From contig NW_027196473.1 in NCBI RefSeq assembly GCF_038502225.1, positions 22,501-86,500 on the forward strand: 64,000 bases of DNA, read 5' to 3'. Positions 11,757-61,118 of the stretch are shown here, piece by piece. The position numbers were made by a program, and so were the translations under genes. The stretch comes from Cherax quadricarinatus. Taxonomy: Eukaryota > Arthropoda > Malacostraca > Decapoda > Parastacidae. The notes under the pieces are model-generated. The model saw only the letters and a program-made list of their open reading frames with translations, made no database searches and was not told the DNA's origin. Every line of letters begins with the position of its first letter. The first letter of the stretch is position 1.

Positions 11757-11883
11757 TGTATGCAGAGCATTTCAGGGAAACTCAAAATTAACTAAAGATT
11801 AATAAGCCAATACCAGTACATATGGTCATTAGACAAGTTACAAAGAATACAAGAGATTGAGTATTCTATTAGGTAATGTTATA
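11757..11883 (-). mobile_element. LINE E 3' UTR fragment
   Basis: TGCAGAGCATTTCAGGG, TTAACTAAAGATTAAT and TATTCTATTAGGTAATGT occur in the same order at 36536-36730, the 3' UTR of the LINE E copy there. Confidence 0.6.
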
Positions 11884-13224
11884 TGTGAGGCAGTAGGTAA
11901 AATGAAAGGGGGTAAGGCAGCCGGGATTGATGGGATAAAGATAGAAATGTTAAAAGCAGGTGGGGATATAGTTTTGGAGTGGTTGGTGCAATTATTTAAT
12001 AAATGTATGGAAGAGGGTAAGGTACCTAGGGATTGGCAGAGAGCATGCATAGTTCCTTTGTATAAAGGCAAAGGGGATAAAAGAGAGTGCAAAAATTATA
12101 GGGGGATAAGTCTGTTGAGTGTACCTGGTAAAGTGTATGGTAGAGTTATAATTGAAAGAATTAAGAGTAAGACGGAGAATAGGATAGCAGATGAACAAGG
12201 AGGCTTTAGGAAAGGTAGGGGGTGTGTGGACCAGGTGTTTACAGTGAAACATATAAGTGAACAGTATTTAGATAAGGCTAAAGAGGTCTTTGTGGCATTT
12301 ATGGATTTGGAAAAGGCGTATGACAGGGTGGATAGGGGGGCAATGTGGCAGATGTTGCAAGTGTATGGTGTAGGAGGTAGGTTACTGAAAGCAGTGAAGA
12401 GTTTTTACGAGGATAGTGAGGCTCAAGTTAGAGTATGTAGAAAAGAGGGAAATTTTTTCCCAGTAAAAGTAGGCCTTAGACAAGGATGTGTGATGTCACC
12501 GTGGTTGTTTAATATATTTATAGATGGGGTTGTAAGAGAAGTAAATGCGAGGGTCTTGGCAAGAGGCGTGGAGTTAAAAGATAAAGAATCACACACAAAG
12601 TGGGAGTTGTCACAGCTGCTCTTTGCTGATGACACTGTGCTCTTGGGAGATTCTGAAGAGAAGCTGCAGAGATTGGTGGATGAATTTGGTAGGGTGTGCA
12701 AAAGAAGAAAATTAAAGGTGAATACAGGAAAGAGTAAGGTTATGAGGATAACAAAAAGATTAGGTGATGAAAGATTGAATATCAGATTGGAGGGAGAGAG
12801 TATGGAGGAGGTGAACGTATTCAGATATTTGGGAGTGGACGTGTCAGCGGATGGGTCTATGAAAGATGAGGTGAATCATAGAATTGATGAGGGAAAAAGA
12901 GTGAGTGGTGCACTTAGGAGTCTGTGGAGACAGAGAACTTTGTCCTTGGAGGCAAAGAGGGGAATGTATGAGAGTATAGTTTTACCAACGCTCTTATATG
13001 GGTGTGAAGCATGGGTGATGAATGTTGCAGCGAGGAGAAGGCTGGAGGCAGTGGAGATGTCATGTCTGAGGGCAATGTGTGGTGTGAATATAATGCAGAG
13101 AATTCGTAGTTTGGAAGTTAGGAGGAGGTGCGGGATTACCAAAACTGTTGTCCAGAGGGCTGAGGAAGGGTTGTTGAGGTGGTTCGGACATGTAGAGAGA
13201 ATGGAGCGAAACAGAATAACTTAA
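11884..13224 (+). pseudogene. LINE A reverse transcriptase, truncated and with an early stop
   Basis: The RT is open from GKMKGGKAAGIDGIK through MDLEKAYDRV and LLFADDT. It stops at 13222-13224, where a TCA codon of the family has become TAA just after VERMERNRIT. This removes the last about 55 residues (the GRGRPRKGW tail). The endonuclease domain is missing through 5' truncation. Confidence 0.88.
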
Positions 13225-24445: not shown

Positions 24446-27400
24446 TCAACGCCCCCGCGGCCCGGTCTGTGACCAGGCCTCCTGGTGGATCAGCGCCTGA
24501 TCAACCAGGCTGTTGCTGCTGGCTGCACGCAAACCAACGTACGAGCCACAGCCCGGCTGATCAGGAACTGTCTTTAGGTGCTTGTCCAGTGCCAGCTTGA
24601 AGACTGCCAGGGGTCTGTTGGTAATCCCCCTTATGTGTGCTGGGAGGCAGTTGAACAGTCTCGGGCCCCTGACACTTATTGTATGGTCTCTTAACGTGCT
24701 AGTGACACCCCTGCTTTTCATTGGGGGGATGGTGCATCGTCTGCCAAGTCTTTTGCTTTCGTAGTGAGTGATTTTCGTGTGCAAGTTTGGTACTAGTCCC
24801 TCTAGGATTTTCCAGGTGTATATAATCATGTATCTCTCCCTCCTGCGTTCCAGGGAATACAGGTTTAGAAACCTCAAGCGCTCCCAGTAATTGAGGTGTT
24901 TTATCTCCGTTATGCGCGCCGTGAAAGTTCTCTGTACATTTTCTAGGTCGGCAATTTCACCTGCCTTGAAAGGTGCTGTTAGAGTGCAGCAATATTCCAG
25001 CCTAGATAGAACAAGTGACCTGAAGAGTGTCATCATGGGCTTGGCCTCCCTAGTTTTGAAGGTTCTCATTATCCATCCTGTCATTTTTCTAGCAGATGCG
25101 ATTGATACAATGTTATGGTCCTTGAAGGTGAGATCCTCCGACATAATCACTCCTAGGTCTTTGACGTTGGTGTTTCGCTCTATTTTGTGGCCAGAATTTG
25201 TTTTGTACTCTGATGAAGATTTAATTTCCTCATGTTTACCATATCTGAGTAATTGAAATTTCTCATCGTTGAACTTCATATTGTTTTCTGCAGCCCACTG
25301 AAAGATTTGGTTGATGTCCGCCTGGAGCCTTGCAGTGTCTGCAATGGAAGACACTGTCATGCAGATTCGGGTGTCATCTGCAAAGGAAGACACGGTGCTG
25401 TGGCTGACATCCTTGTCTATGTCGGATATGAGGATGAGGAACAAGATGGGAGCTAGTACTGTGCCTTGTGGGACAGAGCTTTTCACCGTAGCTGCCTCGG
25501 ACTTTACTCTGTTGACGACTACTCTCTGTGTTCTGTTAGTGAGGAAATTATAGATCCATCGACCGACTTTTCCTGTTATTCCTTTAGCGCGCATTTTGTG
25601 CGCTATTACGCCATGGTCACACTTGTCGAAGGCTTTTGCAAAGTCTGTATATATTACATCTGCATTCTTTTTGTCTTCTAGTGCATTTAGGACCTTGTCG
25701 TAGTGATCCAGTAGTTGAGACAGACAGGAGCGACCTGTTCTAAACCCATGTTGCCCTGGGTTGTGTAACTGATGGGTTTCTAGATGGGTGGTGATCTTGC
25801 TTCTTAGGACCCTTTCAAAGATTTTTATGATATGGGATGTTAGTGCTATTGGTCTGTAGTTCTTTGCTGTTGCTTTACTGCCCCCTTTGTGGAGTGGGGC
25901 TATGTCTGTTGTTTTTAGTAACTGAGGGACGACCCCCGTGTCCATGCTCCCTCTCCATAGGATGGAAAAGGCTCGTGATAGGGGCTTCTTGCAGTTCTTG
26001 ATGAACACAGAGTTCCATGAGTCTGGCCCTGGGGCAGAGTGCATGGGCATGTCATTTATCGCCTGTTCGAAGTCATTTGGCGTCAGGATAACATCGGATA
26101 GGCTTGTGTTAGTCAAATTTTGTGGCTCTCTCATAAAAAATTCATTTTGGTCTTCGACTCTCAGTCTGGTTAGCGGCTTGCTAAAAACTGAGTCATATTG
26201 GGACTTGAGTAGCTCACTCATTTCCTTGCTGTCATCTGTGTAGGACCCATCTTGTTTAAGTAGGGGCCCAATACTGGACGTTGTTCTCGATTTTGATTTG
26301 GCATAGGAGAAGAAATACTTTGGGTTTCTTTCGATTTCATTTATGGCTTTTAGTTCTTCCCGCGATTCCTGACTCCTAAAGGATTCTTTTAGCTTAAGTT
26401 CGATGCTTGCTATTTCTCTGACCAGTGTCTCCCTGCGCATTTCAGATATATTGACCTCTTTTAGCCGCTCTGTTATTCTTTTCCGTCGCCTGTAAAGGGA
26501 GCGCCTGTCTCTTTCTATTTTACATCTACTCCTCCTTTTTCTTAGAGGAATAAGCCTTGTGCATACGTCGAGTGCCACCGAGTTAATCTGTTCTAGGCAT
26601 AAGTTTGGGTCTGTGTTGCTTAGTATATCTTCCCAGCTTATATCGGTTAGGACTTGGTTTACTTGGTCCCACTTTATGTTTTTGTTATTGAAGTTGAATT
26701 TGGTGAATGCTCCCTCATGACTAGTCTCATTTTGTCGGTCTGGGGCTCCATGCATACATGTCTGAACCTCAATTATGTTGTGATCTGAGTATATTGTTTT
26801 TGATATGGTGACATTTCTTATCAGATCATCATTGTTAGTGAAGATGAGGTCTAGTGTATTCTCCAGTCTTGTAGGCTCTATTATTTGCTGGTTTAAATTG
26901 AATTTTGTGCAGAGATTTAAAAGCTCGTGTGAGTGTGAGTTTTCATCAGAGCTGCCTCCTGGTGTTATTTCTGCAACAATATTATTTGCTATATTCCTCC
27001 ATTTTAGGTGCCTTAAGTTGAAATCCCCCAGGAGCAAGATGTTGGGTGCAGGAGCTGGAAGATTTTCCAGACAGTGGTCAATTTTTAACAGCTGTTCCTG
27101 GAATTGCTGGGATGTTGCATCCGGAGGCTTGTAGACTACCACAATGACTAGGTTTTGGTTCTCGACCTTTACTGCTAAAACTTCCACTACGTCATTTGAG
27201 GCATTAAGCAGTTCTGTGCAAACAAGTGACTCTGCAATGTACAGGCCAACCCCCCCCTTTTGCCTGTTCACTCTGTCACATCTGTATAGGTTGTAACCTG
27301 GGATCCATACTTCGTTGTCCAAGTGATCCTTTATGTGGGTCTCAGTGAAAGCCGCGAACATTGCCTTTGCCTCTGCAAGCAGTCCACGGATGAAAGGTAT

Positions 27401-27553
27401 TTTGTTGTTTGTAGCTGGCTTTAGACCCTGTATATTTGCAAAGAAGAATGTTATCGGACTGGTGGTATTGTTGGTACTGGGGGGGGATTTTTTTTCCGGC
27501 ATTAGTATCTGTATCTGTTGGTTTGGAGTGGAGGCCATCGACTGTGGTTCCAC
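24446..27553 (-). CDS. LINE B ORF2: APE endonuclease and reverse transcriptase
   Basis: 1035 codons without interruption. The endonuclease has FTETHIKDH near residue 70, LLLGDFNLRH near 176 and SDHNIIEV near 255, so Glu, Asp, Asn and His catalytic positions are all present. The RT has KTTDIAPLHKGGSKATAKNY (fingers), YTDFAKAFDKCDHG (palm A), SVPQGTVLAPILFL, SSFADDTRI near 723, and a thumb with NNMKFNDEKFQLL and VKDLGVIMSEDL. The C-terminus has GPRLFNCLPAHIRG. It would nick DNA and copy the element RNA by target-primed reverse transcription. The start ATG overlaps the end of ORF1, as in other two-ORF LINEs. The last about 30 residues are encoded by the GC-rich terminal region. Confidence 0.94.
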   Translation of the reverse strand: MEPQSMASTPNQQIQILMPEKKSPPSTNNTTSPITFFFANIQGLKPATNNKIPFIRGLLAEAKAMFAAFTETHIKDHLDNEVWIPGYNLYRCDRVNRQKGGVGLYIAESLVCTELLNASNDVVEVLAVKVENQNLVIVVVYKPPDATSQQFQEQLLKIDHCLENLPAPAPNILLLGDFNLRHLKWRNIANNIVAEITPGGSSDENSHSHELLNLCTKFNLNQQIIEPTRLENTLDLIFTNNDDLIRNVTISKTIYSDHNIIEVQTCMHGAPDRQNETSHEGAFTKFNFNNKNIKWDQVNQVLTDISWEDILSNTDPNLCLEQINSVALDVCTRLIPLRKRRSRCKIERDRRSLYRRRKRITERLKEVNISEMRRETLVREIASIELKLKESFRSQESREELKAINEIERNPKYFFSYAKSKSRTTSSIGPLLKQDGSYTDDSKEMSELLKSQYDSVFSKPLTRLRVEDQNEFFMREPQNLTNTSLSDVILTPNDFEQAINDMPMHSAPGPDSWNSVFIKNCKKPLSRAFSILWRGSMDTGVVPQLLKTTDIAPLHKGGSKATAKNYRPIALTSHIIKIFERVLRSKITTHLETHQLHNPGQHGFRTGRSCLSQLLDHYDKVLNALEDKKNADVIYTDFAKAFDKCDHGVIAHKMRAKGITGKVGRWIYNFLTNRTQRVVVNRVKSEAATVKSSVPQGTVLAPILFLILISDIDKDVSHSTVSSFADDTRICMTVSSIADTARLQADINQIFQWAAENNMKFNDEKFQLLRYGKHEEIKSSSEYKTNSGHKIERNTNVKDLGVIMSEDLTFKDHNIVSIASARKMTGWIMRTFKTREAKPMMTLFRSLVLSRLEYCCTLTAPFKAGEIADLENVQRTFTARITEIKHLNYWERLRFLNLYSLERRRERYMIIYTWKILEGLVPNLHTKITHYESKRLGRRCTIPPMKSRGVTSTLRDHTISVRGPRLFNCLPAHIRGITNRPLAVFKLALDKHLKTVPDQPGCGSYVGLRAASSNSLVDQALIHQEAWSQTGPRGR

Positions 27554-28941
27554 TCCAGGAATGACTGGATTTGGTGTACGATTTCTGCCATTTCCTGCCA
27601 GTTTTTTTTCCTTCCTGGCACTAAAAAACCTCTCCCTCTTGAGTGGCTGTGGCTACCCAGGTTTTCCCCTGGCCTGGATGTTTTGTATCTTTTTGTCCCC
27701 TTTAGATGGTATGCCTGGCAATTTAAGTTATAGCACAGTCTTTCCTGTACTGAAGAGGTACACATTTCAGGGTGAAAAAGCTTACAGGAAGGGAGTTTGC
27801 ATTTTCCTGTTTTCATATGGGCATGGCATTTTCTAGGGTGGTCATAGTTGCATGTCCCATCTGTTTTTCCAGATTTCCCATGCCAGCAGATACCAAGTGC
27901 ATAGTATGTGCACAGTCTTGGTTTCCGCTTGCCTTGGGTTTCTGTGACTGTATTCCCTGTTGGTGCATGTTTCCCTGTCTTACTTCTATCCTCCCTAGCA
28001 CCAACAATGGAGCTCCCACCAGTTGTTTTTGGTAATTTATCCTCACTATTGCTATTGGAGTCCTCTTGTTTGCTATTTCCTGCGGTATTTCTAGTTTGCA
28101 ATATTGGTTTTATCTTATCTTTGACTACACTTGTTTCCCTACTATGGCTCCTGTCCCCTATGAGGTCATTTATATGTATTCCTTCCTGCGTATAATTCCC
28201 GACTCCCTGGACAATATCTCCAGCTTCACCATTTCTGTCTCCCAGGACAGTATCTCCAGCTTCACCATTTCTGTCTCCCAGGACAGCACCTCCAGCTTCA
28301 CCATTACTGTCTCCCAGGACAGTATCTCCAGCTTCACCATTTCTGTCTCCCAGGACAGCACCTCCAGCTTCACCATTTCTGTCTCCCAGGACAGTATCTC
28401 CAGCTTCACCATTTCTGTCTCCCAGGACAGCACCTCCAGCTTCACCATTACTGTCTCCCAGGACAGTATCTCCAGCTTCACCATTTCTGTCTCCCAGGAC
28501 AGCACCTCCAGCTTCACCATTACTGTCTCCCAGGACAGCACCTCCAGCTTCACCATTACTGTCTCCCAGGACAGCACTATCAGCCCCACATTTACTGACT
28601 ACCAGGACATCACCTCCAGCCTTACAGTTTATGACTACATGGCCAGTATCAAGGGCAGTACCATTCAGCCCAGACATTTTATGTTCCCATCTGTTGTAGA
28701 AAGCTTCCAGGTTTTCTATGAAAGCAGCTTTGATGTTGTCCTCTTTTAATACCCTTGTGATTTTAGTCCACAGTTTTTCCTCATTTGAGCATACCCAAAA
28801 ACACTTCTCTGTTTTAATACTGCTTGTAGCTAGTTCTGGGATATCTGCACAAGGGGCGTGACACCAATTTCCACAAAAATGACAATTTATCCATGTGGAA
28901 GCCCGTTTGTTTGACTGACCACAGACTACACAGGGCTTCAT
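27502..28941 (-). CDS. LINE B ORF1: PHD-like finger, 12-residue repeats, CCCH fingers
   Basis: 479 codons, intact, starting MKPCVVCGQSN. Residues 4-51 form a PHD-like zinc finger (C4, C7, C20, C23, H28, C31, C47, C51), as known in CR1 ORF1 proteins. Residues of roughly 120-250 are about 11 copies of a 12-residue unit of the type GEAGGAVLGDSN. Residues of roughly 338-417 hold CCCH-type zinc fingers (CTYYALGICWHG...CNYDH, CHAHMKTGKCKLPSCKLFH, MCTSSVQERLCYNLNCQAYH). A basic C-terminus follows. It probably binds LINE RNA in ribonucleoprotein particles, which is inference from the CCCH fingers. It lies upstream of and overlaps ORF2. Confidence 0.88.
   Translation of the reverse strand: MKPCVVCGQSNKRASTWINCHFCGNWCHAPCADIPELATSSIKTEKCFWVCSNEEKLWTKITRVLKEDNIKAAFIENLEAFYNRWEHKMSGLNGTALDTGHVVINCKAGGDVLVVSKCGADSAVLGDSNGEAGGAVLGDSNGEAGGAVLGDRNGEAGDTVLGDSNGEAGGAVLGDRNGEAGDTVLGDRNGEAGGAVLGDRNGEAGDTVLGDSNGEAGGAVLGDRNGEAGDTVLGDRNGEAGDIVQGVGNYTQEGIHINDLIGDRSHSRETSVVKDKIKPILQTRNTAGNSKQEDSNSNSEDKLPKTTGGSSIVGAREDRSKTGKHAPTGNTVTETQGKRKPRLCTYYALGICWHGKSGKTDGTCNYDHPRKCHAHMKTGKCKLPSCKLFHPEMCTSSVQERLCYNLNCQAYHLKGTKRYKTSRPGENLGSHSHSRGRGFLVPGRKKNWQEMAEIVHQIQSFLEWNHSRWPPLQTNRYRY
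28190..28590 (-). repeat. 36-bp coding minisatellite in LINE B ORF1
   Basis: About eleven 36-bp units (plus-strand words CCAGCTTCACCATTTCTG and TCTCCCAGGACAG alternate). The period is a multiple of three, so the ORF stays open, and the same periodicity opens long spurious frames on both strands. Confidence 0.93.
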
Positions 28942-29429
28942 AATGATTTGAATGGTTGATTTACTGCAATTCTACTAGCAACCTCTTGAAAATTCTATTA
29001 ATAACCTTAAATGAAGCTCTAGCTATTTGTATTTCTGTTTCTAACTCTTTTTGTATATTGGACAGCTTACCGTCACGTTCCTGATTTTTAATGTTTGTGT
29101 TTATAGGGCGCCTACAACCCCATCCGTTTACAGTCTGCTTTATTGTCCAACGAAACTGTTTGAAACCAGTCCCGGGTTCGGACCAGTCAAGGGTTCGGAC
29201 CAGGCAAGGGTTCGGGCCAGACGATCTGCTCTGATCAGTGGGTCACTTATTTTAAAACATACTGGTCGGTGATTTGAGCTAACACATGAAGGATCTACTG
29301 GAAATTATCTACCCGAGTAATATGTGATTTGACTGATACAAAAGTATAACTTGCGTGTTGCCGGTGATATCTGGCAGCTCCTACAATGACGAACGGTCAC
29401 CTCCTTGTTTATCAATCGCTGTATCTGGC

Positions 29430-32552: not shown

Positions 32553-35500
32553 GAAATACCACAGGAAATAGCAAACAAGAGAACTCCACTAGCAATAGTG
32601 AGGATATATTACCAAAAACAACTGGTGGGAGCTCCATTGTTGGTGCTAGGGAGGATAGGAATAAGACAGGGAAACATGCACCAACAGGGAATACAGTCAC
32701 AGAAACCCAAGGCAAACGGAAACCAAGCCTGTGCACATACTATGCACTTGGTATCTGCAGACATGGGAAATCTGGAAAAACAGATGGGACGTGCAACTAT
32801 GACCACCCTAGAAAATGCCATGCCCATATGACAACAGGAAAATGCAAACTCCCTTCCTGTAAGCTTTTTCACCCTGAAATGTGTACCTCTTCAGTACAGG
32901 AAAGACTGTGCTACAACTTAAATTGCCAGGCATACCATCTAAAGGGGACAAAAAGATACAAAACATCCAGGCCATGGGAAAACCTGGGTAGCCACAGCCA
33001 CTCAAGAGGGAGAGGTTTTTTAGTGCCAGGAAGGAAAAAAAACTGGCAGGAAATGGCAGAAATCGTACACCAAAACCAGTCATTCCTGGAGTGGAACCAC
33101 AGTCGATGGCCTCCACTCCAAACCAACAGATACAGATACTAATGCCAGAAAAAAAATCTTCCCCCAGTACCAACAATACCACCAGTCCGATGACATTCTT
33201 CTTTGAAAATATACAGGGTCTAAAGCCAGCAACAAACAACAAAATACCTTTCATCCGTGGACTGCTTGCAGAGGCAAAGGCAATGTTCGCGGCTTTCACT
33301 GAGACCCACATAAAGGATCACTTGGACAACGAAATATGGATCCCAGGTTACAACCTATACAGATGTGACAGAGTGAACAGGCAAAAGGGGGGGGTTGGCC
33401 TGTACATTGCAGAGTCACTTGTTTGCACAGAACTGCTAAATGCCTCAAATGATGTAGTGGAAGTTTTAGCAGTAAAGGTCGAGAACCAAAACCTAGTCAT
33501 TGTGGTAGTCTACAAGCCTCCGGATGCAACATCCCAGCAATTCCAGGAACAGCTGTTAAAAATTGACCACTGTCTGGAAAATCTTCCAGCTCCTGCACCC
33601 AACATCTTGCTCCTGGGGGATTTCAACTTAAGGCACCTAAAATGGAGGAATATAGCAAATAATATTGTTGCAGTAATAACACCAGGAGGCAGCTCTGATG
33701 AAAACTCACACTCACACGAGCTTTTAAATCTCTGCACAAAATTCAATTTAAACCAGCAAATAATAGAGCCTACTAGACTGGAGAATACACTAGATCTCAT
33801 CTTCACTAACAATGATGATCTGATAAGAAATGTCACCATATCAAAAACAATATACTCAGATCACAACATAATTGAGGTTCAGACATGTATGCGTGGAGCC
33901 CCAGACTGACATAATGAGACTAGTCACGAGGGAGCATTCACCAAATTCAACTTCAATAACAAAAACAAAGTGGGACCAAGTAAACCAAGTCCTAAAAGAT
34001 ATAAGCTGGGAAGATATACGTACTAAGCAACACAGACCCCAACTTATGCCTAGAACAGATTAACTTGGTGGCACTCGATGTATGCACAAGGCTTATTCCT
34101 CTAAGAAAAAGGAGGAGTAGATGTAAAATAGAAAGAAACAGGCGCTCCCTTTACAGGCGACGGAAAAGAATAGCAGAGCGGCTAAAAGAGGTCAATATAT
34201 CTGAAATGCGTAGGGAGACACTGGTCAGAGAAATAGCAAGCATCGAACTCAAGCTAAAGGAATCTTATAGGAGTCAGGAATCGCTGGAAGAACTAAAAGC
34301 CATAAATGAAATCGAAAGAAACCCAAAGTATTTCTTCTCCTATGCCAAATCAAAGTCGAGAACAACGTCCAGTATTGGGCCCCTACTTAAACAAGATGGG
34401 TCCTACACAGATGACAGCAAGAAATGAGTGAGCTACTCAAGCCCCAATATGACTCAGTTTTTAGCAAGCCGCTAACCAGACTGAGAGTCGAAGATCAAAA
34501 TAAATTTTTTATGAGAGAGCCACAAAATTTGGTTAACACAAGCCTATCCGATGTTATCCTGACGCCAAATGACTTCGAACAGGCGATAAATGACATGCCC
34601 ATGCACTCTGCCCCAGGGCCAGACTCATGGAACTCCGTGTTCATCAAGAACTGCAAGAAGCCCCTATCACGAGCCTTTTCCATCCTATGGAGAGGGAGCA
34701 TGGACACGGGGGTCATCCCACAGTTACTAAAAACAACAGACATAGCCCCACTCCACAAAGGGGGCAGTAAAGCAACAGCAAAGAACTTCAGACCGATAGC
34801 ACTAACATCCCATATCATAAAAATCTTTGAAAGGGTCCTAAGAAGCAAGATCACCACCCATCTAGAAACCCATCAGTTACACAACCCAGGGCAACATGGG
34901 TTTAGAACAGGTCGCTCCTGTCTGTCTCAACTATTGGATCACTACGACAAGGTCCTAAATGCACTAGAAGATAAAAAGAATGCAGATGTAATATATACAG
35001 ACTTTGCAAAAGCCTTCGACAAGTGTGACCATGGCGTAATAGCGCACAAAATGCGTGCTAAAGGAATAACAGGAAAAGTCGGTCGATGGATCTATAATTT
35101 CCTCACTAACAGAACACAGAGAGTAGTCGTCAACAGAGTAAAGTCTGAGGCAGCTACGGTGAAAAGCTCTGTTCCACAAGGCACAGTACTCGCTCCCATC
35201 TTATTCCTCATCCTCATATCCGACATAGACAAGGATGTCAGCCACAGCACCGTGTCTTCCTTTGCAGATGACACCCGAATCTGCATGACAGTGTCTTCCA
35301 TTGCAGACACTGCAAGGCTCCAGGCGGACATCAACCAAATCTTTCAGTGGGCTGCAGAAAACAATATGAAGTTCAACGATGAGAAATTTCAATTACTCAG
35401 ATATGGTAAACACGAGGAAATTAAATCTTCATCGGAGTACAAAACAAATTCTGGCCACAAAATAGAGCGAAACTCCAACGTCAAAGACCTGGGAGTGATC

Positions 35501-36235
35501 ATGTCGGAGGATCTCACCTTCAAGGACCATAACATTGTATCAATCGCATCTGCTAGAAAAATGACAGGATGGATAATGAGAACCTTCAAAACTAGGGAGG
35601 CCAAGCCCATGATGACACTCTTCAGGTCACTTGTTCTATCTAGGCTGGAATATTGCTGCACACTAACAGCACCTTTCAAGGCAGGTGAAATTGCTGACCT
35701 AGAAAATGTACAGAGAACCTTCACAGCGCGCATAACGGAGATAAAACACCTCAATTACTGGGAGCGCTTGAGGTTCCTAAAACTGTATTCCCTGGAACGC
35801 AGGCGGGAGAGATACATGATTATATACACCTGGAAAATCCTAGAGGGACTAGTACCGAACTTGCACATGAAAATCACTCACTACAAAAGCAAAAGACTTG
35901 GCAGACGATGCAACATCCCCCCAATGAAAAGCAGGGGTGTCACTAGCACGTTAAGAGACCATACAATAAGTGTCAGGGGCCCGAGACTGTTCAACTGCCT
36001 CCCAGCATACATAAGGGGGATTACCAACAGACCCCTGGCAGTCTTCAAGCTGGCACTGGACAAGCACCTAAAGTCGGTTCCTGACCAGCCGGGCTGTGAC
36101 TTGTATGTTGGTTTGCATGCAGCCAGCAGCAACAGCCTGGTTGATTAGGCTCTGATCCACCAGGAGGCCTGGTCACAGACCGGGCCGTGGGGGCGTTGAC
36201 CCCCGGAACTCTCTCCAGGTAAACTCCAGGTAAAC
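32553..36235 (+). mobile_element. LINE B copy, 5'-truncated in ORF1
   Basis: It starts at the ORF1 segment equivalent to 28080 in the minus-strand copy and runs to the repeated CCAGGTAAAC terminus. It is very similar to that copy (a few percent difference by eye). It is nested in the TTAA MITE. Confidence 0.92.
33091..36148 (+). pseudogene. LINE B ORF2, disrupted
   Basis: The endonuclease segment is open from 33091 to 33909, where the family codons for PDRQNE have become a stop (CCAGACTGACATAATG). Further small indels occur near 33990-34060 (AACACAGACCC region) and a frameshift lies near 34425. From 34424 to 36148 the RT is open, with YTDFAKAFDKCDHG, SSFADDTRI and the C-terminal GPRLFNCLPAYIRG. 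The upstream ORF1 remnant (32553-33142) keeps the CCCH fingers. Confidence 0.88.
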
Positions 36236-49584: not shown

Positions 49585-50930
49585 TCTAACGGTGCCATAC
49601 ATCTGAATGTATATCCTTTACATCAGTTAAGTTTATAAAATTGTCACTTTGATGGGTAGCTGAAATAAAAATAATAATCTTTTCAAGACACTAAGAATTA
49701 TGTATGTGATTTTATGTCCTCTATGCTTAAACAGTAAATTAAAGGACATAAAATCACATGCATAATTCTTAGTGCCTTGAAAAGATTATTATTTTTACTT
49801 GAGCTACCCATCAAAGTGACAACTTTATTAACCCTTCGGGGGTCGGCAGGTCCTCTCAGAGACTTGTTCTCAGGGTCGGCCAAATTTCAAAAAAGAAAAA
49901 AAAAAATTTTTTCTTATGAAAAGATAGAGAATCTTTTCCCGATCATAATGACACCAAAAGTATGAAATTTGAGGGAAAACTTATGGAAATATGCTCTCGC
50001 GAAGTTAGCAGTCTTGACGATGTTTACGCATCGGCGATTTTGCCCACTTTGAGCCCTATTTTCGGCCAATTCCAGTGTACTTGTCGACAAAAATCATAAC
50101 TATTTTGCTAGAACTTCATTTTTTCTATCGAATGAGTACAAGAAACCACCCATTTACTGATTTCAACTATCCAATACAGTAGTCAGAATTTAGCAATTTT
50201 GCCAATGTCACACAAATTTCAAAAGATGCCAATTTCCGAATAGAGTCCAGAATAAACAAGAAAGACATTCCTGTTCATTAGTCATGTTCCCACGCCCCTC
50301 TTACATTCTTTTGTTTTCCACTTTGAATTTTTATTCTCACAAAAAAAAATAGAAGATTTACTGTTATGCAGACTACTGCATTAGTGTAGAAATGGTATAA
50401 ATAATATCAGCACACTTGTGAAAGAATATTACTCACCAGTTGACGTGTATTGGACGCTCGGCATGATTTGTTTACTTTTGATCTTTGGTAAAAATCGAAC
50501 ATTTCTGCTACTTTGAGCTCAATTTCAAGGTACTTTTCATTGTAAAATCAGTCAAAATCATCTCAATTTCTGTAATATACCTTCTATTCTATAAAATGAG
50601 ACCAGGAAAACTAGAATACAACAATAAATATCATACGAAAATACAGTGCACAGTCGCTGTTTTAATCCAAAAACACGGTCAAAGTTTTTTTTTTCTCATT
50701 ACACACTGTGTGCTGCAGGATTTTTTTTATACTGTGCACACTGACCACATAGACCCATTCTTTCATATGTAGGCCTACCAGCTTTCTCTCACTAGATTTG
50801 ACGGCGCTAGAATTTATGCGTACTAGTGCATCAAAAACCCCTGCACGTAAGCCGTACTAGTACGGCCGAAACCCCGAAAGGGTTAACACTTAACTTATGT
50901 AATGGATATACATTCAGATGCATGGCACCT
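49585..50930. repeat. Long fold-back (inverted repeat) interrupted by a MITE
   Basis: The left arm 49585-49720 and the right arm 49743-49831 plus 50883-50930 are near-perfect reverse complements (about 136 bp, few mismatches) around a 22-bp loop. Examples are GTGATTTTATGTCCT/AGGACATAAAATCAC and CACTTTGATGGGTAGCT/AGCTACCCATCAAAGTG. A TTAA MITE has inserted in the right arm. A second small hairpin (ACTGTCTAAGC/GCTTAGACAGT) follows at 50933-50957. Confidence 0.88.
49832..50882. mobile_element. TTAA (piggyBac-type) MITE, complete
   Basis: 1051 bp between TTAA at 49828-49831 and 50883-50886. Ends are CCCTTCGGGGGTCGGC and GCCGAAACCCCGAAAGGG. The left 60 bp (CTTGTTCTCAGGGTCGG, A-run) match the right subterminal region of the piggyBac transposon at 30700-30790. 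The fold-back arm reads through once the element and one TTAA are removed. Non-coding. Confidence 0.92.
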
Positions 50931-51469: not shown

Positions 51470-51621
51470 AAAGAAAACACATTCACCATCTTTCTTTCAA
51501 TCACTGTCTTTCAAGAAGCGTTCTGACATAACAATCAGATTACCCATCAACTGCAACATCTCCACCTCTCCTTTGGAATGCAAGCACTGCACTTCCCATC
51601 TCCAGGACCCAAGTCTAGCTA

Positions 51622-51626
<5 letters not shown>
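51470..51626 (-). mobile_element. Diverged LINE A 3' fragment
   Basis: AACACATTCACCATC, CACTGTCTTTCAAGAAG and GCACTTCCCATCTCCAGGA follow the LINE A 3' UTR order. It faces, tail-out, the plus-strand LINE A that begins 44 bp further on. Confidence 0.72.

Positions 51627-51670
<44 letters not shown>
51627..51670. repeat. (AAT)n microsatellite
   Basis: About 14 uninterrupted AAT units join two oppositely oriented LINE A fragments. Confidence 0.95.
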
Positions 51671-51671
<1 letters not shown>

Positions 51672-53127
51672 GGATAGCAGATGAACAAGGAGGCTTTAGG
51701 AAAGGTAGGGGGTGTGTGGACCAGGTGTTTACAGTGAAACATATAAGTGAACAGTATTTAGATAAGGCTAAAGAGGTCTTTGTGGCATTTATGGATTTGG
51801 AAAAGGCGTATGACAGGGTGGATAGGGGGGCAATGTGGCAGATGTTGCAAGTGTATGGTGTAGGAGGTAGGTTACTGAAAGCAGTGAAGAGTTTTTACGA
51901 GGATAGCGAGGCTCAAGTTAGAGTATGTAGGAAAGAGGGAAATTTTTTCCCAGTAAAAGTAGGCCTTAGACAAGGATGTGTGATGTCACCGTGGTTGTTT
52001 AATATATTTATAGATGGGGTTGTAAGAGAAGTAAATGCGAGGGTCTTGGCAAGAGGCGTGGAGTTAAAAGATAAAGAATCACACACAAAGTGGGAGTTGT
52101 CACAGCTGCTCTTTGCTGATGATACTGTGCTCTTGGGAGATTCTGAAGAGAAGTTGCAGAGATTGGTGGATGAATTTGGTAGGGTGTGCAAAAGAAGAAA
52201 ATTAAAGGTGAATACAGGAAAGAGTAAGGTTATGAGGATAACAAAAAGATTAGGTGATGAAAGATTGAATATCAGATTGGAGGGAGAGAGTATGTAGGAG
52301 GTGAACGTATTCAGATATTTGGGAGTGGACGTGTCAGCGGATGGGTCTATGAAAGATGAGGTGAATCATAGAATTGATGAGGGAAAAAGAGTGAGTGGTG
52401 CACTTAGGAGTCTGTGGAGACAAAGAACTTTGTCCTTGGAGGCAAAGAGGGGAATGTATGAGAGTATAGTTTTACCAACGCTCTTATATGGGTGTGAAGC
52501 GTGGGTGATGAATGTTGCAGCGAGGAGAAGGCTGGAGGCAGTGGAGATGTCATGTCTGAGGGCAATGTGTGGTGTGAATATAATGCAGAGAATTCGTAGT
52601 TTGGAAGTTAGGAGGAGGTGCGGGATTACCAAAACTGTTGTCCAGAGGGCTGAGGAAGGGTTGTTGAGGTGGTTCGGACATGTAGAGAGAATGGAGCGAA
52701 ACAGAATGACTTCAAGAGTGTATCAGTCTGTAGTGGAAGGAAGGCGGGGTAGGGGTCGGCCTAGGAAGGGTTGGAGGGAGGGGGTAAAGGAGGTTTTGTG
52801 TGCGAGGGGCTTGGACTTCCAGCAGGCATGCGTGAGCGTGTTTGATAGGAGTGAATGGAGACAAATGGTTTTTAATACTTGACGTGCTGTTGGAGTGTGA
52901 GCAAAGTAACATTTATGAAGGGATTCAGGGAAACCGGCAGGCCGGACTTGAGTCCTGGAGATGGGAAGTACAGTGCCTGCACTCTGAAGGAGGGGTGTTA
53001 ATGTTGCAGTTTAAAAACTGTAGTGTAAAGCACCCTTCTGGCAAGACAGTGATGGAGTGAATGATGGTGAAAGTTTTTCTTTTTCGGGCCACCCTGCCTT
53101 GGTGGGAATCGGCCGGTGTGATAATAA
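51671..53127 (+). pseudogene. LINE A RT, 5'-truncated with a premature stop
   Basis: It begins at RIADEQGGFRKGRG inside the RT and runs to the 3' tail at 53127. It is nearly identical to 12178-13637. A GAG codon of the family is TAG at 52293-52295 (GESM stop EVNVF). Otherwise the frame is open, with MDLEKAYDRV, LLFADDT and a full C-terminus ending RQMVFNT at 52880. Confidence 0.9.
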
Positions 53128-53379: not shown

Positions 53380-53825
53380 AAACATTACTGTGGTCATACT
53401 CAAACACCACGTCCATTAAAAACCACCTCTCTCCATTCACTCCTATCTAACACATTGACACAAGCCTGCTGAATGCTCAATCCTTAAACTCAAAGCCTCT
53501 TTTAGCCTCTCCCTTCAACCATTCCTGGGATGACCCCTACCTTTCCTACCTTCCACCCCAGATTTATAAGCCCCCTTTTGTCATCCTACCCCTCTCTACA
53601 GATCTTTCTGCATGCCCAAGCCACCTCAACAATTCCTTCTCAGCCCTCTGAATTATACCCTTGGTCACCCCCTACATCAGTCCAAATTCTCTATGTTGCA
53701 GTCACACCACACTGCTTTCAAGAATGATATATCCACAGCCTCTAGCCTCAGTACAGTGTATTACTGCAGCATTCAAAAACTCTATGCACTCTCCAGTCTG
53801 ATACCCAATTTTTTCATTGCCTAGA
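53380..53825 (-). mobile_element. Diverged LINE A C-terminal fragment
   Basis: CTCTCTCCATTCACTCCTAT, CTCCCTTCAACCATTCCTGG and CACCACACTGCTTTCAAG follow the order of 4625-4960 (complement) with many changes. Old copy. Confidence 0.7.
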
Positions 53826-53923
53826 ATTATTATTTTTACTATTATTATTATTAGTATCATTATTATTAAAATGGTATACAATACCGATAGGTTGTTAGGT
53901 AAGACACAGATGCAACAGTTAGG
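53826..53923 (-). repeat. Outer hammerhead-bearing repeat, left part (split by Tigger)
   Basis: GGTAAGACACAGATGCAACAG ends at the Tigger TA and continues at 60807 as TCTTTATTTTAAAATG. The complement, CTGTTGTATCTGTGTCTTACC, is found at 61091-61111, which shows the pre-insertion continuity. Confidence 0.75.
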
Positions 53924-54186
53924 TACAGTGGTCCCTCACATTTTGTGGTTCTCGGCAATCATAGATTTCGGAAATCATAGGGGTATTTTCATATAAACAT
54001 GGGCTCGCTTTTCATAGGTTGACTCGCGAGTCATAGTTCGTCCGGGACACGTACCCACGGTGTGAGCCAGGGCGGCAGCCAGTCTGGTATTGTTTACCAG
54101 TGAGCAAAGGTCCCCTCACGTGCTCCAGCGAAATATTTCATAATATTCCATTTATTTTAGTGCTTGCAAGTACTAAATAAGCTACC

Positions 54187-55286
54187 ATGACTCCAAAGAA
54201 AGCTCCTAGTGCCAAGCCTGTGGTAAAGAAGGTGAGAAATACGATTGAATTTAAGAAAAACATCATTGAACAATATGAAAGTGGTACAAGTGCGGCCGAA
54301 CTGGCCAGGATGTATAAGAAACCCTACACAACCATATGTTCCATAGTGGCCAAGAAAAGGGAAATCAAGGATGCTGTTGTTGCAAAGGGAGTAACTATGC
54401 TGACAAAAATGAGATCACCAGTACTCAAAGAGGTTGAGAAGTTATTATTGGTGTGGATAAATGAGAAACAATTAGCAGGAGATACTCTTATGACTTCGAT
54501 TATTTGTGAAAAGGCTAGGCAGTTGCACAACAATCTGGTAAAGAAATTGCCTGAAAATAGTGGTGATGTGAGTGAATTTAGGGCCAGCAAAGGTTGGTTT
54601 GAGAGATTTAAGAACCATACTGGCATACACAGTGTGGTAAGGCATGGTGAGGCTGCCAGTTCGGACCACAAGGAGGCTGAAAAATATGTGCATGAATTCC
54701 AGGAGTACATAGAGGCTGAAGGACTGACACCTGAACAAGTGTTCAATTGTGACGAAACAGGCCTCTTTTGGAAGAAAATGCCAAAGAGGACCTTCATTAC
54801 ACAGGAGGAAAAGGCAATGCCAGGACACAAGCCTATGAAAGACAGGCTGACACTAATGTTCTGTGCTAATGCTAGTGGGGATTTCAAAGTGGAGCCATTA
54901 CTAGTGTACCATTCTGAAAATCCCAGAGTGTTCAGGAAAAACAATGTTATGAAAAGTAAACTGTGTGTGTTTTGGAAATCTAATAGTATGGCATGGGCCA
55001 CGAGGGAAATTTTCGTCGAGTGGTTCAATGAAGTGTTTGGCCCTAGTGTGAAGAATTACCTCCTGGAAAAGAAATTGGATCTCAAGTGCCTGCTATTAAT
55101 GGACAATGCACCTGCTCATCCTCCAAACTTGGATGACCTAATTTTCGAGGAGTTTGGGTTCATCACAGTAAAGTTCTTGCCCCCGAATACCACTCCTCTC
55201 CTCCAGCCCATGGACCAGCAGGTCATTGCAAACTTTAAAAAACTCTATACCAAAGCAATGTTTCACAGGTGCTTGACTGTGACCAC
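54187..55286 (+). CDS. Tigger transposase, N-terminal and DDE part
   Basis: About 366 codons from ATG (CTACCATGACTCC). Residues 15-65 hold an HTH of psq type (RNTIEFKKNIIEQYESGTSA). Residues 75-150 hold a CENP-B-type HTH (RASKGWFERFKNHTGIHSVV). The DDE domain has FNCDETGLFWKK (first Asp), LLLMDNAPAHP (second) and LLQPMDQQVI (third). No stop or frameshift is seen up to the LINE junction after FHRCLTVT. The protein would bind the ends and catalyse excision at TA. It is separated from its C-terminus only by the LINE. Confidence 0.93.
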
Positions 55287-55524
55287 AAGATGGGTCCTAC
55301 ACAGATGACATCAAGGAAATGAGTGAGCTACTCAAGTCACAATATGACTCAGTTTTTAGCAAGCCGCTAACCAGACTGAGAGTCGAAGATCAAAATGAAT
55401 TTTTTATGAGAGAGCCACAAAATTTGGTTAACACAAGCCTATCCGATGTTATCCTGACACCAAATGACTTCGAACAGGCGATAAATGACATGCCCATGCA
55501 CTCTGCCCCAGGGCCAGACTCATG

Positions 55525-55536
55525 GAACTCCGTGTT
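55525..55536. repeat. 12-bp target-site duplication, left
   Basis: GAACTCCGTGTT, repeated at 58208-58219. In the uninterrupted LINE B (34631-34642) this word occurs once. Confidence 0.92.
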
Positions 55537-55598
55537 GTGATGAATGGTTTGGAAAACCGACAAGTTGAAGATTGAGACACTTATGCAGCATATGGGAA

Positions 55599-55653
55599 TC
55601 TTTATTCAGGAAACGTTTCGCCACACAGTGGCTTCATCAGTCCAATACAAAGA
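55599..55653 (-). ncRNA. Hammerhead-like core, minus-strand unit
   Basis: Complement of the motif described at 56609-56663, with TCATCAG at 55634-55640 as the complement of CTGATGA. The same core recurs 378 bp on (56012-56018). Sequence in both minus units agrees with the plus-strand units at every core position. Confidence 0.68.
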
Positions 55654-56336
55654 GGAAGGCGTAAGGAGAGGAGGAGTATGAGGTAATCAGTCCCTCAGCC
55701 TGGAGTCGATGTGTTCAGTCCATCAATCTTGTAGAATGTACAGCATAGGGCCGTAGACGTGGCTTATATACTGTAGTGAGGTGACTTGAAGCAGACGGAG
55801 GCGGGATCATAGTGGTACCATCCACTAGTCAAAGTAGGTCTTTGTCCAAAGGTTGAACAAGCGTTGAAGAATTCTTTGTAAGAAGATCCCATGATGCTGC
55901 AGTGTCTGACAGTTGTGATGAATGGTTTGGAAAACCGACAAGTTGAAGATTGAGACACTTATGCAGCATATGGGAATCTTTATTCAGGAAACGTTTCGCC
56001 ACACAGTGGCTTCATCAGTCCAATACAAAGAGGAAGGCGTAAGGAGAGGAGGAGTATGAGGTAATCAGTCCCTCAGCCTGGAGTCGATGTGTTCAGTCCA
56101 TCAATCTTGTAGAATGTACAGCATAGGGCCGTAGACGTGGCTTATATACTGTAGTGAGGTGACTTGAAGCAGACGGAGGCGGGATCATAGTGGTACCATC
56201 CACTAGTCAAAGTAGGTCTTTGTCCAAAGGTTGAACAAGCGTTGAAGAATTCTTTGTAAGAAGATCCCATGATGCTGCAGTGTCTGACAGTTGTGATGAA
56301 TGGTTTGGAAAACCGACAAGTTGAAGATTGAGACAC

Positions 56337-56435
56337 TGTCAGACACTGCAGCATCATGGGAATCTTATTACAAACGTTTCTTCACACAGTTGTTCATCAC
56401 CAATACAAAGAGGAACGTAAAGACCTACTTTGACT
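56337..56435. other. Hybrid hinge between inverted arrays
   Basis: The segment after GTCAGACACTGCAGCATCATG reads GGAATCTTATTACAAACG, TTCTTCACACAGTTGTTC, and CAATACAAAGAGGAACGTAA, then joins AAGACCTACTTTGAC. It looks like a contracted mixture of the minus-strand unit (GGAATCTTTATTCAGGAAACG, CACACAGTGGCTTCATC) and the plus-strand unit. It is either a real recombination product or a consensus error at a palindrome. Confidence 0.7.
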
Positions 56436-56608
56436 AGTGGATGGTACCACTATGATCCCGCCTCCGTCTGCTTCAAGTCACCTCACTACAGTATATAAGC
56501 CACGTCTACGGCCCTATGCTGTACATTCTACAAGATTGATGGACTGAACACATCGACTCCAGGCTGAGGGACTGATTACCTCATACTCCTCCTCTCCTTA
56601 CGCCTTCC

Positions 56609-56663
56609 TCTTTGTATTGGACTGATGAAGCCACTGTGTGGCGAAACGTTTCCTGAATAAAGA
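56609..56663 (+). ncRNA. Type I hammerhead-ribozyme-like motif (representative copy)
   Basis: Core CTGATGA at 56622-56628. Helix II GCCAC/GTGGC at 56630-56634 and 56638-56642, loop TGT. GAA at 56643-56645. Helix III is only A-C/G-T (56646-56649). Position 17 is T at 56650, so cleavage would follow GTT. Helix I is GGA/TCC (56619-56621 with 56651-56653), then an internal loop, then TCTTT/AAAGA (56609-56613 with 56659-56663). All invariant core bases are present. One A (56629) is extra between the core and helix II. A two-pair helix III is known from dimer-active animal hammerheads. Other plus-strand copies start 378, 756, 1134 and 1512 bp downstream. Cleavage is not shown. Confidence 0.72.
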
Positions 56664-58207
56664 TTCCCATATGCTGCATAAGTGTCTCAATCTTCAACTT
56701 GTCGGTTTTCCAAACCATTCATCACAACTGTCAGACACTGCAGCATCATGGGATCTTCTTACAAAGAATTCTTCAATGCTTGTTCAACCTTTGGACAAAG
56801 ACCTACTTCGACTAGTGGATGGTACCACTATGATCCCGCCTCCGTCTGCTTCAAGTCACCTCACTACAGTATATAAGCCACGTCTACGGCCCTATGCTGT
56901 ACATTCTACAAGATTGATGGACTGAACACATCGACTCCAGGCTGAGGGACTGATTACCTCATACTCCTCCTCTCCTTACGCCTTCCTCTTTGTATTGGAC
57001 TGATGAAGCCACTGTGTGGCGAAACGTTTCCTGAATAAAGATTCCCATATGCTGCATAAGTGTCTCAATCTTCAACTTGTCGGTTTTCCAAACCATTCAT
57101 CACAACTGTCAGACACTGCAGCATCATGGGATCTTCTTACAAAGAATTCTTCAACGCTTGTTCAACCTTTGGACAAAGACCTACTTCGACTAGTGGATGG
57201 TACCACTATGATCCCGCCTCCGTCTGCTTCAAGTCACCTCACTACAGTATATAAGCCACGTCTACGGCCCTATGCTGTACATTCTACAAGATTGATGGAC
57301 TGAACACATCGACTCCAGGCTGAGGGACTGATTACCTCATACTCCTCCTCTCCTTACGCCTTCCTCTTTGTATTGGACTGATGAAGCCACTGTGTGGCGA
57401 AACGTTTCCTGAATAAAGATTCCCATATGCTGCATAAGTGTCTCAATCTTCAACTTGTCGGTTTTCCAAACCATTCATCACAACTGTCAGACACTGCAGC
57501 ATCATGGGATCTTCTTACAAAGAATTCTTCAACGCTTGTTCAACCTTTGGACAAAGACCTACTTTGACTAGTGGATGGTACCACTATGATCCCGCCTCCG
57601 TCTGCTTCAAGTCACCTCACTACAGTATATAAGCCACGTCTACGGCCCTATGCTGTACATTCTACAAGATTGATGGACTGAACACATCGACTCCAGGCTG
57701 AGGGACTGATTACCTCATACTCCTCCTCTCCTTACGCCTTCCTCTTTGTATTGGACTGATGAAGCCACTGTGTGGCGAAACGTTTCCTGAATAAAGATTC
57801 CCATATGCTGCATAAGTGTCTCAATCTTCAACTTGTCGGTTTTCCAAACCATTCATCACAACTGTCAGACACTGCAGCATCATGGGATCTTCTTACAAAG
57901 AATTCTTCAACGCTTGTTCAACCTTTGGACAAAGACCTACTTTGACTAGTGGATGGTACCACTATGATCCCGCCTCCGTCTGCTTCAAGTCACCTCACTA
58001 CAGTATATAAGCCACGTCTACGGCCCTATGCTGTACATTCTACAAGATTGATGGACTGAACACATCGACTCCAGGCTGAGGGACTGATTACCTCATACTC
58101 CTCCTCTCCTTACGCCTTCCTCTTTGTATTGGACTGATGAAGCCACTGTGTGGCGAAACGTTTCCTGAATAAAGATTCCCATATGCTGCATAAGTGTCTC
58201 AATCTTC

Positions 58208-58219
58208 GAACTCCGTGTT
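58208..58219. repeat. 12-bp target-site duplication, right
   Basis: GAACTCCGTGTT, partner of 55525-55536. The LINE B frame resumes here. Confidence 0.92.
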
Positions 58220-59817
58220 CATAAAGAACTGCAAGAAGCCCCTATCACGAGCCTTTTCCATCCTATGGAGAGGGAGCATGGACACGGGGGTCGTCCCACA
58301 GTTACTAAAAACAACAGACATAGACCCACTCCACAAAGGGGGCAGTAAAGCAACAGCAAAGAACTACAAACCTATAGCACTAACATCCCATATCATAAAA
58401 ATCTTTGAAAGGGTCCTAAGAAGCAAGATCACCACCCATCTAGAAACCCATCAGTTACACAACCCAGGGCAACATGGGTTTAGAACAGGTCGCTCCTCTC
58501 TGTCTCAACTATTGGATCACTACGACAAGGTCCTAAATGCACTAGAAGACAAAAAGAATGCAGATGTAATATATACAGACTTTGCAAAAGCCTTCGACAA
58601 GTGTGACCATGGCGTAATAGCGCACAAAATGCGTGCTAAAGGAATAACAGGAAAAGTCGGTCGATGGATCTATAATTTCCTCACTAACAGAACACAGAGA
58701 GTAGTCGTCAACAGAGTAAAGTCCGAGGCAGCTACGGTGAAAAGCTCTGTTCCACAAGGCACAGTACTCGCTCCCACCTTGTTCCTCATCCTCATATTCG
58801 ACATAGACAAGGATGTCAGCCACAGCACTGTGTCTTCCTTTGCAGATGACACCCGAATCTGCATGACAGTGTCTTCCATTGCAGACACTGCAAGGCTCCA
58901 GGCAGACATCAACCGAATCTTTCAGTGGGCTGCAGAAAACAATATGAAGTTCAACGATGAGAAATTTCAATTACTCAGATATGGTAAACACGAGGAAATT
59001 AAATCTTCATCAGAGTACAAAACAAATTCTGGCCACAAAATAGAGTGAAACACCAACGTCGAAGACCTAGGAGTGATCATGTCGGAGGATCTCACCTTCA
59101 AGGACCATAACATTGTATCAATCGCATCTGCTAGAAAAATGATAGGATGGATAATGAGAACCTTCAAAACTAGGGAGGCCAAGCCCATGATGACACTCTT
59201 CAGGTCACTTGTTCTATCTAGGCTGGAATATTGCTGCACACTAACAGCACCTTTCAAGGCAGGTGAAATTGCTGACCTAGAAAATGTACAGAGAACCTTC
59301 ACGGCGCGCATAACGGAGATAAAACACCTCAATTACTGGGAGCGGTTGAGGTTCCTAAAACTGTATTCCCTGGAATGCAGGCGGGAGAGATACATGATTA
59401 TATACACCTGGAAAATCCTAGAGGGACTAGTACCGAACTTGCACACGAAAATCACTCACTACGAAAGCAAAAGACTTGGCAGACGATGCACCATCCCCCC
59501 AATGAAAAGCAGGGGTGTCACTAGCACGTTAAGAGATCATACAATAAGTGTCAGGGGCCCGAGACTGTTCAACTGCCTCCCAGCATACATAAGGGGGATT
59601 ACCAACAGACCCCTGGCAGTCTTCAAGCTGGCACTGGACAAGCACCTAAAGTAGGTTCCTGACCAGCCGGGCTGTGGCTCGTACGTTGGTTTGTGTGCAG
59701 CCAGCAGCAACAGCCTGGTTGATCAGGCTCTGATCCACCAGGAGGCCTGGTCACAGACTGGGCCACGGGGGCGTTGACCCCCAGAACTCTCTCCAGGTAA
59801 ACTCCAGGTCCAGGTTA

Positions 59818-60516: not shown

Positions 60517-60806
60517 ACAATCCACTCTCTCTCCTCCTCCAGTCTTCCATACACTAAGAAGAATCTCCAATAAAGGTAAGTGTTATGCTATTAATGTTTC
60601 ATTCATCATTTCTCATTGCATTGTTTATGTACTACATATATATTTCATGTAAAAAAATTTTTTGTTTTAATACTTCTGGGTGTCAGGAACGGATTAATTG
60701 TATTTACATTATTTCTTATGAGGAAAATTGATTCGCAAATCGTAGATTTCGTTAATAGTAGCAGCTCCAGGAATGGATTAACTACGAAAAACGAGGGAGC
60801 ACTGTA

Positions 60807-61118
60807 TCTTTATTTTAAAATGTTTTGCCTACACAGTAGGCTTCTTCAGTCGAGTACAGAAAAGTTGATAGAAGCAGAAGAGACGTGAAGACGATGTAAT
60901 CAGTCTGAAACAATGTTTCAGACTATGGAACAATACTCTTCTCCAGATTGAGGGACTGACCACCTCAAAACTTCAAGGGTGATGGACTGATTACATCGTC
61001 TTCACGTCTCTTCTGCTTCTATCAACTTTTCTGTACTCGACTGAAGAAGCCTACTGCATAGGCGAAACATTTCGAAATAAAGATAACTAACTGTTGTATC
61101 TGTGTCTTACCTAACATC
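60807..61118. repeat. Outer hammerhead-bearing repeat, inverted pair
   Basis: The left arm 60807-60908 and the right arm 60981-61083 are near-perfect reverse complements (GAGACGTGAAGACGATGTAA / TTACATCGTCTTCACGTCTC), separated by about 72 bp. Each arm has a CTGAAGA...GGCGAAAC core. The spacer word CTCCAGATTGAGGGACTGA matches CTCCAGGCTGAGGGACTGA of the 378-bp unit, so the two repeats are related subfamilies. Tigger entered the left arm at a TA. Confidence 0.85.
61026..61082 (+). ncRNA. Hammerhead-like motif, covarying subfamily
   Basis: Core CTGAAGA at 61041-61047 (position 7 is variable in hammerheads). Helix II GCCTA/TAGGC (61049-61053, 61059-61063), GAA at 61064-61066. Helix I TCGA/TCGA (61037-61040, 61072-61075) plus outer CTTT/AAAG (61026-61029, 61079-61082). 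Helix III reads A-C-A-T, so one base has decayed from ACGT. Compared with the 378-bp unit, both helices changed sequence but kept pairing. The same extra A precedes helix II. Confidence 0.62.

Follow-up and report, generated by a model that had tools for sequence, protein, structure and literature searches.

In a 64,000-nucleotide stretch of the genome of Cherax quadricarinatus (contig NW_027196473.1, positions 22,501 to 86,500; we call this stretch the window and use its own numbering), tandem 378-bp units at 55537-58207 each contain a motif that resembles a hammerhead ribozyme. We think it probable that this array is a single insertion of a Penelope-like derivative that encodes no protein and that the enzyme of a Penelope-like element copied it in trans from an RNA with predicted cleavage at the motif. 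A preliminary description of this DNA had read the array as an animal retrozyme. That reading holds in that each unit has a hammerhead-type motif and the array is a mobile-element insertion, but the motif is of the minimal Penelope type and the ends are Penelope-like. On sequence grounds, the array is better called a Penelope-like derivative with a retrozyme-like arrangement. The 12-bp target duplication, the unequal 3' ends, a stretch that blends the two orientations, and a diverged relative at 60805-61085 are new beyond the preliminary description.

The array is bounded on both sides by a 12-bp target-site duplication (GAACTCCGTGTT), so the range that had been given for it, 55537-58207, turns out to be the exact extent of the insert. 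If the array and one duplicate are removed, then an open reverse-transcriptase frame of a long interspersed nuclear element (LINE) runs through the join. Two copies of this LINE elsewhere in the window (24449-27652, minus strand, and 34415-36148, plus strand) are uninterrupted, and the 300-nt joined empty site can be aligned to both over 299 columns with no gap. Among these LINE pieces, the Pfam scan covered the copy at 24449-27652 and the right-flank frame at 58194-59045, and it found an RVT_1 domain in each. Judging from these boundaries, the array is one mobile-element insertion within another mobile element.

The units of the insert run in both directions from a head-to-head junction (Table 1). 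Both outer ends are RNA 3' ends, and the left end is 30 nt longer (33 nt with the shared GTT). At the left end, the element would go on with AAC, which is complementary to the GTT that closes the target strand. The right end has a 4-nt match with one extra base, between AACU as the next bases of the RNA and GAACT in the flank. Such short RNA-target matches can be chance. Head-to-head copies, a target duplication, and an optional tail of about 31 nt at one end are the features of Penelope-type inserts, and all of them are present here. The duplication is 12 bp as compared to the 8-10 bp described for rotifer Penelope elements, and some Penelope inserts are described as having no duplication (PMC3846280). 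For a Penelope-like protein in purified form, cutting and extension of both strands are reported, with copying from two sites inside the RNA that bound the tail, one of them placed 111-118 bp into the open reading frame (ORF) (PMC11167929). Penelope-type integration is therefore likely by analogy, with the structure of the ends pointing to the enzyme.

Next to the inverted junction, 56361-56418 is a blend of both orientations. It resembles the product of gene conversion or an artefact of the consensus, and the number of units and the precise position of the junction are therefore provisional. The two outer ends are not affected. The blend could also be taken to mean that the inverted multi-unit arrangement is partly an assembly artefact and that the true number or orientation of the units differs. 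We consider this very unlikely, as the duplication is identical in the two flanks and the RNA 3' ends next to them fall at different unit positions; a collapsed array is hardly expected to give such a pattern. Also, head-to-head copies are the most frequent arrangement reported for rotifer Penelope elements (PMC3846280).

The array includes five complete units from cut to cut (four plus, one minus), each of 378 bp; the GC content of the unit is 45.2%. Relative to the third complete plus unit, the plus units differ at 2, 1, 0 (the reference itself), and 0 bases, and the minus unit at 0. Of the seven copies of site 159, the two in the adjacent plus units 1 and 2 have C and five have T; of the six copies that include site 127, only the one in plus unit 1 has T and five have C. 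The variant that two neighbors have in common is more readily explained by a variable multimeric template, or by later exchange between units of the inserted array, than by a single circle, although a circle is compatible with it. The RNA of the unit is predicted to pair with itself more strongly than shuffled sequences do (-96.6 versus -81.4 kcal/mol, standard deviation 5.2, with all 100 shuffles above the value of the unit). In a BLAST search with the unit, the only matches in the window are the array and the diverged stretch near 61 kb.

A TATA-like box, TATATAAG, sits 130 bp 5' of the core in all seven copies, as had been claimed for every core, and is a candidate promoter element. AATAAA lies at the 3' strand of the outer helix I in every unit (56656-56661, 57034, 57412, 57790, and 58168 on the plus strand; 55601 and 55979 on the minus strand), and a possible polyadenylation signal would thus be hidden when the motif folds. 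A scan for bacterial promoters and terminators found none of either, which is uninformative for eukaryotic DNA.

The seven cores (CTGATGAAGCCACTGTGTGGCGAAACGTTTCC) are all exact. They start at 56622, 57000, 57378, 57756, and 58134 on the plus strand and lie at 55609-55640 and 55987-56018 on the minus strand; the reported five plus and two minus copies at 378-bp spacing in near-identical units are thus correct. As RNA, the motif is GGA-CUGAUGA-A-GCCAC-UGU-GUGGC-GAA-ACGU-U/UCC, where the slash marks the predicted cut. Helix III consists of ACGU only, without a loop, and there is an extra nucleotide (A) between the core and helix II. With one extra nucleotide allowed, all seven copies have the type I core (CUGANGA, GAA, and NUH, with helices I and II in type I order).

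A descriptor of the hammerhead (CTGANGA, 0-1 extra nucleotides, helix II of at least 4 bp, GAAA, NUH, and helix I of at least 3 bp) matched the window eight times, at the seven array copies and at 61041. In 60 dinucleotide shuffles, the mean was 0.017 matches and the maximum was 1. Collections of prokaryotic and viral sequences gave 65 partial matches to a motif pattern, and 0 of the 65 completed the hammerhead structure. (This pattern demands GAAACG, so the motif at 61041, with GAAACA, cannot match it.) On this result and that of the shuffles, we reject a chance origin of the motif. A stricter pattern had no matches in viral contigs. Of six motif strings looked for in the literature, five gave no match and the shortest, of 13 letters, occurred in a single bacterial paper on another subject. 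It is very likely that the array carries a hammerhead motif. By its sequence, this motif is the minimal type that is known from Penelope-like elements and not the canonical ribozyme of published animal retrozymes.

The motif at 61041 lies in a diverged relative of the unit, at 68.6% identity over 159 columns, whose own two arms are 95% identical over 101 bases. This second family's motif is UCGA-CUGAAGA-A-GCCUA-CUGCA-UAGGC-GAA-ACAU-U/UCGA. It has the type I core on the same terms as the array copies, and the extra A before helix II is common to both families. Its helix III would contain a C-A mismatch. Between the families, both sides change at pair 4 (A-T to T-A) and pair 5 (C-G to A-T) of helix II and at pair 3 of helix I (G-C to C-G). 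Changes on both sides of three pairs are compensatory as aligned here, but the MAFFT alignment slipped in helix II and the pairs were counted in a hand-set register, which leans towards the hammerhead reading. In the minus copy of the second family, GAA has become AAA and part of helix I is gone, so the core is no longer complete and we consider this copy to be decayed. The relative is embedded in a repeat related to 53700-54100 (minus strand). When its joined flanks are compared to that repeat, two bases are missing at the join and there is no clear duplication. Unlike in the main array, the two ends of the relative fall at one motif position, which differs from Penelope-type ends. The MIR447 model of Rfam matches 60805-61085 below threshold, probably because the relative is a long hairpin.

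These comparisons also bear on whether the array could be a plain satellite that grew by unequal exchange, with the likeness to a hammerhead being accidental or a relic. The tandem units are near-identical, the variant in two neighbors looks like exchange or duplication within the array, and Rfam's hammerhead models do not match. However, a satellite does not account for the target duplication, the restored LINE frame, or inverted arms with unequal 3' ends, nor for the compensatory changes and a descriptor expectation of 0.017. We regard a satellite as extremely unlikely.

The closest parallel to the motif that we discuss is from the lizard Poseidon element PAc, which is CCU-CUGAGGA-U-GCC...GGC-GAA-ACGU-C/AGG in our hand-set register (PMC11167929). 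As in the array, ACGU replaces helix III and there is one extra nucleotide before helix II (U in PAc, in that register). The preliminary description had suggested that the extra A departs from the consensus and may slow or abolish cleavage. The extra A is indeed present, but with A in the diverged relative and U in the lizard motif (in the hand-set register), it need not be a defect of the array copy. In Chrysanthemum chlorotic mottle viroid, the extra A of the hammerhead is located between A9 and helix II. This plus-strand motif is a natural hammerhead with an extra A, like the array's (PMC3705267). It belongs to a viroid, however, and has other structural differences. Two crustacean repeat papers mention Penelope elements, but neither hammerhead nor ribozyme was matched in their main texts.

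Animal retrozymes are described as having units of 150-450 bp, a target duplication of over 4 bp, and a GC content below 50% (text) or below 45% (Figure 1 legend) (PMC7229834). The array, with tandem units of 378 bp that lack ORFs, a 12-bp duplication, and 45.2% GC, agrees with these properties, with the GC content within the limit of the text but not of the legend. Could the array be a canonical animal retrozyme, with an efficient type I hammerhead that releases 378-nt monomers and a host ligase that closes the circles? These properties and the strong self-pairing of the unit speak for it. However, the animal non-LTR (long terminal repeat) retrozymes in PMC7229834 have a canonical type I hammerhead with a stable helix III, and the array has the minimal Penelope type (ACGU without a loop, plus the extra nucleotide). 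Competing folds are also predicted to be favored, and the split at site 159 (C in two adjacent units, T in five of seven copies) is unexpected from a single circle without later change. So a canonical retrozyme seems very unlikely.

There is no reading frame of at least 130 amino acids inside the array (one such frame overlaps its last 14 bases). The reverse transcriptase and GIY-YIG of an autonomous Penelope-like element are lacking, so the array can at most be a non-autonomous relative. It resembles Penelope-like elements with minimal hammerheads in their pseudo-LTRs (PMC11167929, PMC3846280) in having an ATG at the motif, a TATA box, copies arranged head to head, a one-sided tail of about 30 nt, and a target duplication; it differs from them in having no coding region between the repeats and in having about 4.9 + 2.1 tandem units. 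The array might instead be debris of a full-length element, that is, pseudo-LTR copies that remained after the coding region was lost by truncation or recombination, with no separate non-autonomous family. The unit is like a pseudo-LTR (TATA box, hammerhead, ATG within the motif, and short 3' extension), solo pseudo-LTRs are described in PMC3846280, and a single insertion is seen in the window. But about 4.9 + 2.1 head-to-tail periods with no coding between them lie within one target duplication, so the RNA or complementary DNA (cDNA) that was inserted was likely already multimeric and without an ORF. The units are also near-identical. We consider debris to be unlikely and a non-autonomous family to be the likely explanation.

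How might such a Penelope-like derivative have inserted? First, the TATA-like box of each unit would drive transcription. Second, the minimal hammerhead would cleave this multimeric RNA behind GUU; to go by its published relatives, it would probably do so as a dimer or with the aid of a Penelope-like protein, and probably not to completion. Third, a Penelope-like protein would make nicks in the two strands of the target, at a distance of 12 bp, and would begin to copy the RNA internally from two points, +71 and +101 from the ATG in CTGATGA, with 30 nt between them. Fourth, the template being multimeric or circular, one cDNA would extend back over some 4.9 units and the other over some 2.1, and the two would be joined at a 3-nt match (ACT). 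The end positions and the duplication are seen in the sequence, and the unit counts and the junction are seen in the assembly; from these we infer the enzyme and the form of the template. A circle or a multimer would both suffice for about 4.9 + 2.1 units. It is conceivable, although doubtful, that the array is a retrozyme that parasitizes a Penelope-like element: a protein-assisted minimal hammerhead would yield 378-nt circles, which would be copied repeatedly round the circle from both nicked target strands.

Several observations weigh against our proposal. The preliminary description had suggested a comparison to Rfam's hammerhead models; using Infernal, there was no match at E ≤ 1 across the window or at E ≤ 10 over 541 bases that contain two cores. 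For the 58-nt core, the active fold has -12.6 kcal/mol and the best structure, which pairs GAUG of the core with CGUU, has -16.3 kcal/mol by nearest-neighbor energies. In a 930-nt tandem RNA, the pairing probabilities are 0.74-0.87 for helix II, 0.14-0.52 for the inner helix I, and 0.10-0.25 for the outer helix I, and the palindrome GAAACGUUUC pairs neighboring units in the best structure (its duplex has -11.1 kcal/mol, and the four-base ACGU has -1.7 kcal/mol). The site-159 variation disfavors a single-circle template. Reading from the ATG in CTGATGA, a stop comes after 11 codons, so the N-terminus of a Penelope protein is not preserved. Pfam found no GIY-YIG domain in the 9 ORFs that were scanned of 48 listed for the window, and a six-frame search of the window with Penelope motifs gave six short matches, all in stop-broken frames. 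Only one insertion of the array family was seen, within the window. The ends have 3-4 nt of possible RNA-target complementarity, whereas the PAc enzyme starts without target homology (PMC11167929). Finally, hammerhead mutants left insertion in vitro unaffected in that study, so the ribozyme may not be needed for mobility.

The folding results depend on context. When the 58-nt core is folded alone, the helices that had been proposed (GGA/TCC, TCTTT/AAAGA, and GCCAC-TGT-GTGGC) pair at model probabilities of 0.87-1.00, and it is helix I that becomes much less probable in the longer tandem RNA. The energies leave out the tertiary contacts of hammerheads, and by the same energies the lizard motif likewise prefers another fold. 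That hammerhead was not cut without protein and was cut with it (PMC11167929), and, according to reviews, dimers may be the active form of minimal Penelope hammerheads. The competing pairings that would block the core, and the lack of an Rfam match, weigh against simple self-cutting, and our prediction is that the array RNA probably cuts itself only with help.

Table 1. Features of the array and its diverged relative, in window coordinates. Unit positions are counted from the predicted cut.
Feature	Position	Strand	Details
Left target-site duplication	55525..55536		GAACTCCGTGTT; last 3 bases (GTT) also match the element (microhomology)
Minus part of array	55537..56337	-	801 bp, about 2.1 units; RNA 3' end at 55537 = unit position 75 (+101 from ATG in CTGATGA), to unit position 31 at inner junction
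30-nt 3' extension (tail)	55537..55566	-	Left end only; unit positions 46-75
Hammerhead motif, minus copy 1	55598..55654	-	Predicted cut between 55612 and 55611
TATA-like boxes, minus	55763-55770, 56141-56148	-	Candidate promoter element
Hammerhead motif, minus copy 2	55976..56032	-	Predicted cut between 55990 and 55989
Head-to-head junction	56335..56337		ACT common to both arms
Plus part of array	56335..58207	+	About 4.9 units from unit position 77; RNA 3' end at 58207 = unit position 45 (+71 from ATG in CTGATGA)
Mixed plus-unit/minus-unit stretch	56361..56418		Adjoins inverted junction; limits approximate
TATA-like boxes, plus	56492..56499, 56870, 57248, 57626, 58004	+	Candidate promoter element
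Hammerhead motif, plus copy 1	56608..56664	+	Predicted cut after 56650
Hammerhead motif, plus copy 2	56986..57042	+	Predicted cut after 57028
Hammerhead motif, plus copy 3	57364..57420	+	Predicted cut after 57406
Hammerhead motif, plus copy 4	57742..57798	+	Predicted cut after 57784
Hammerhead motif, plus copy 5	58120..58176	+	Predicted cut after 58162
Right target-site duplication	58208..58219		GAACTCCGTGTT
Diverged relative	60805..61085		Inverted pair of arms of about 100 bp; plus motif CTGAAGA at 61041; minus motif decayed

Other parts of the window are also rich in repeats. Long LINE reverse-transcriptase segments at 4605-7580 (minus strand), 11833-13224 (plus strand), and 51527-52882 (plus strand) have near-identical translations, and their repetition in one window suggests that LINEs have been active recently in this genome. 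For a LINE protein in the window, the five best relatives are 54-59% identical. Directly upstream of the LINE fragment that hosts the array, 54181-55308 is a DDE_1 transposase frame with Tc5-type and CENP-B-like DNA-binding domains. At 28203-28620, a 36-bp tandem repeat (11.6 copies) lies in an open frame (27502-28971, minus strand) beside a LINE and encodes a GDSNGEAGGAVL-like repeat. A long imperfect palindrome with arms of about 37 bp is at 49680-49783, where Rfam's mir-3910 matches below threshold, and mir-4659 and mir-998 match the inverted junction of the array, also below threshold. All 11 Rfam matches in the window were below their gathering scores, and we take those of the microRNA type to be hairpins and not genes.

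The array belongs to a known kind of element, but the record of its insertion is unusually clear. It has been proposed in the literature that Penelope-like elements mobilize animal retrozymes, as both co-occur and both have type I hammerheads and tandem copies. Here, within one clean insertion, the distance between the two end sites of a retrozyme-like array resembles that between the internal start sites that a Penelope-like enzyme uses, so this proposal can be tested from end positions alone. If the array is a parasitic retrozyme, then it would preserve a fossil of rolling-circle reverse transcription from two sides, and it would supply a physical link, missing so far, from animal retrozymes to Penelope-like elements. 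The extra nucleotide that the motifs have in common may bear on why minimal ribozymes escape covariance models and why, in the lizard, they need a protein.
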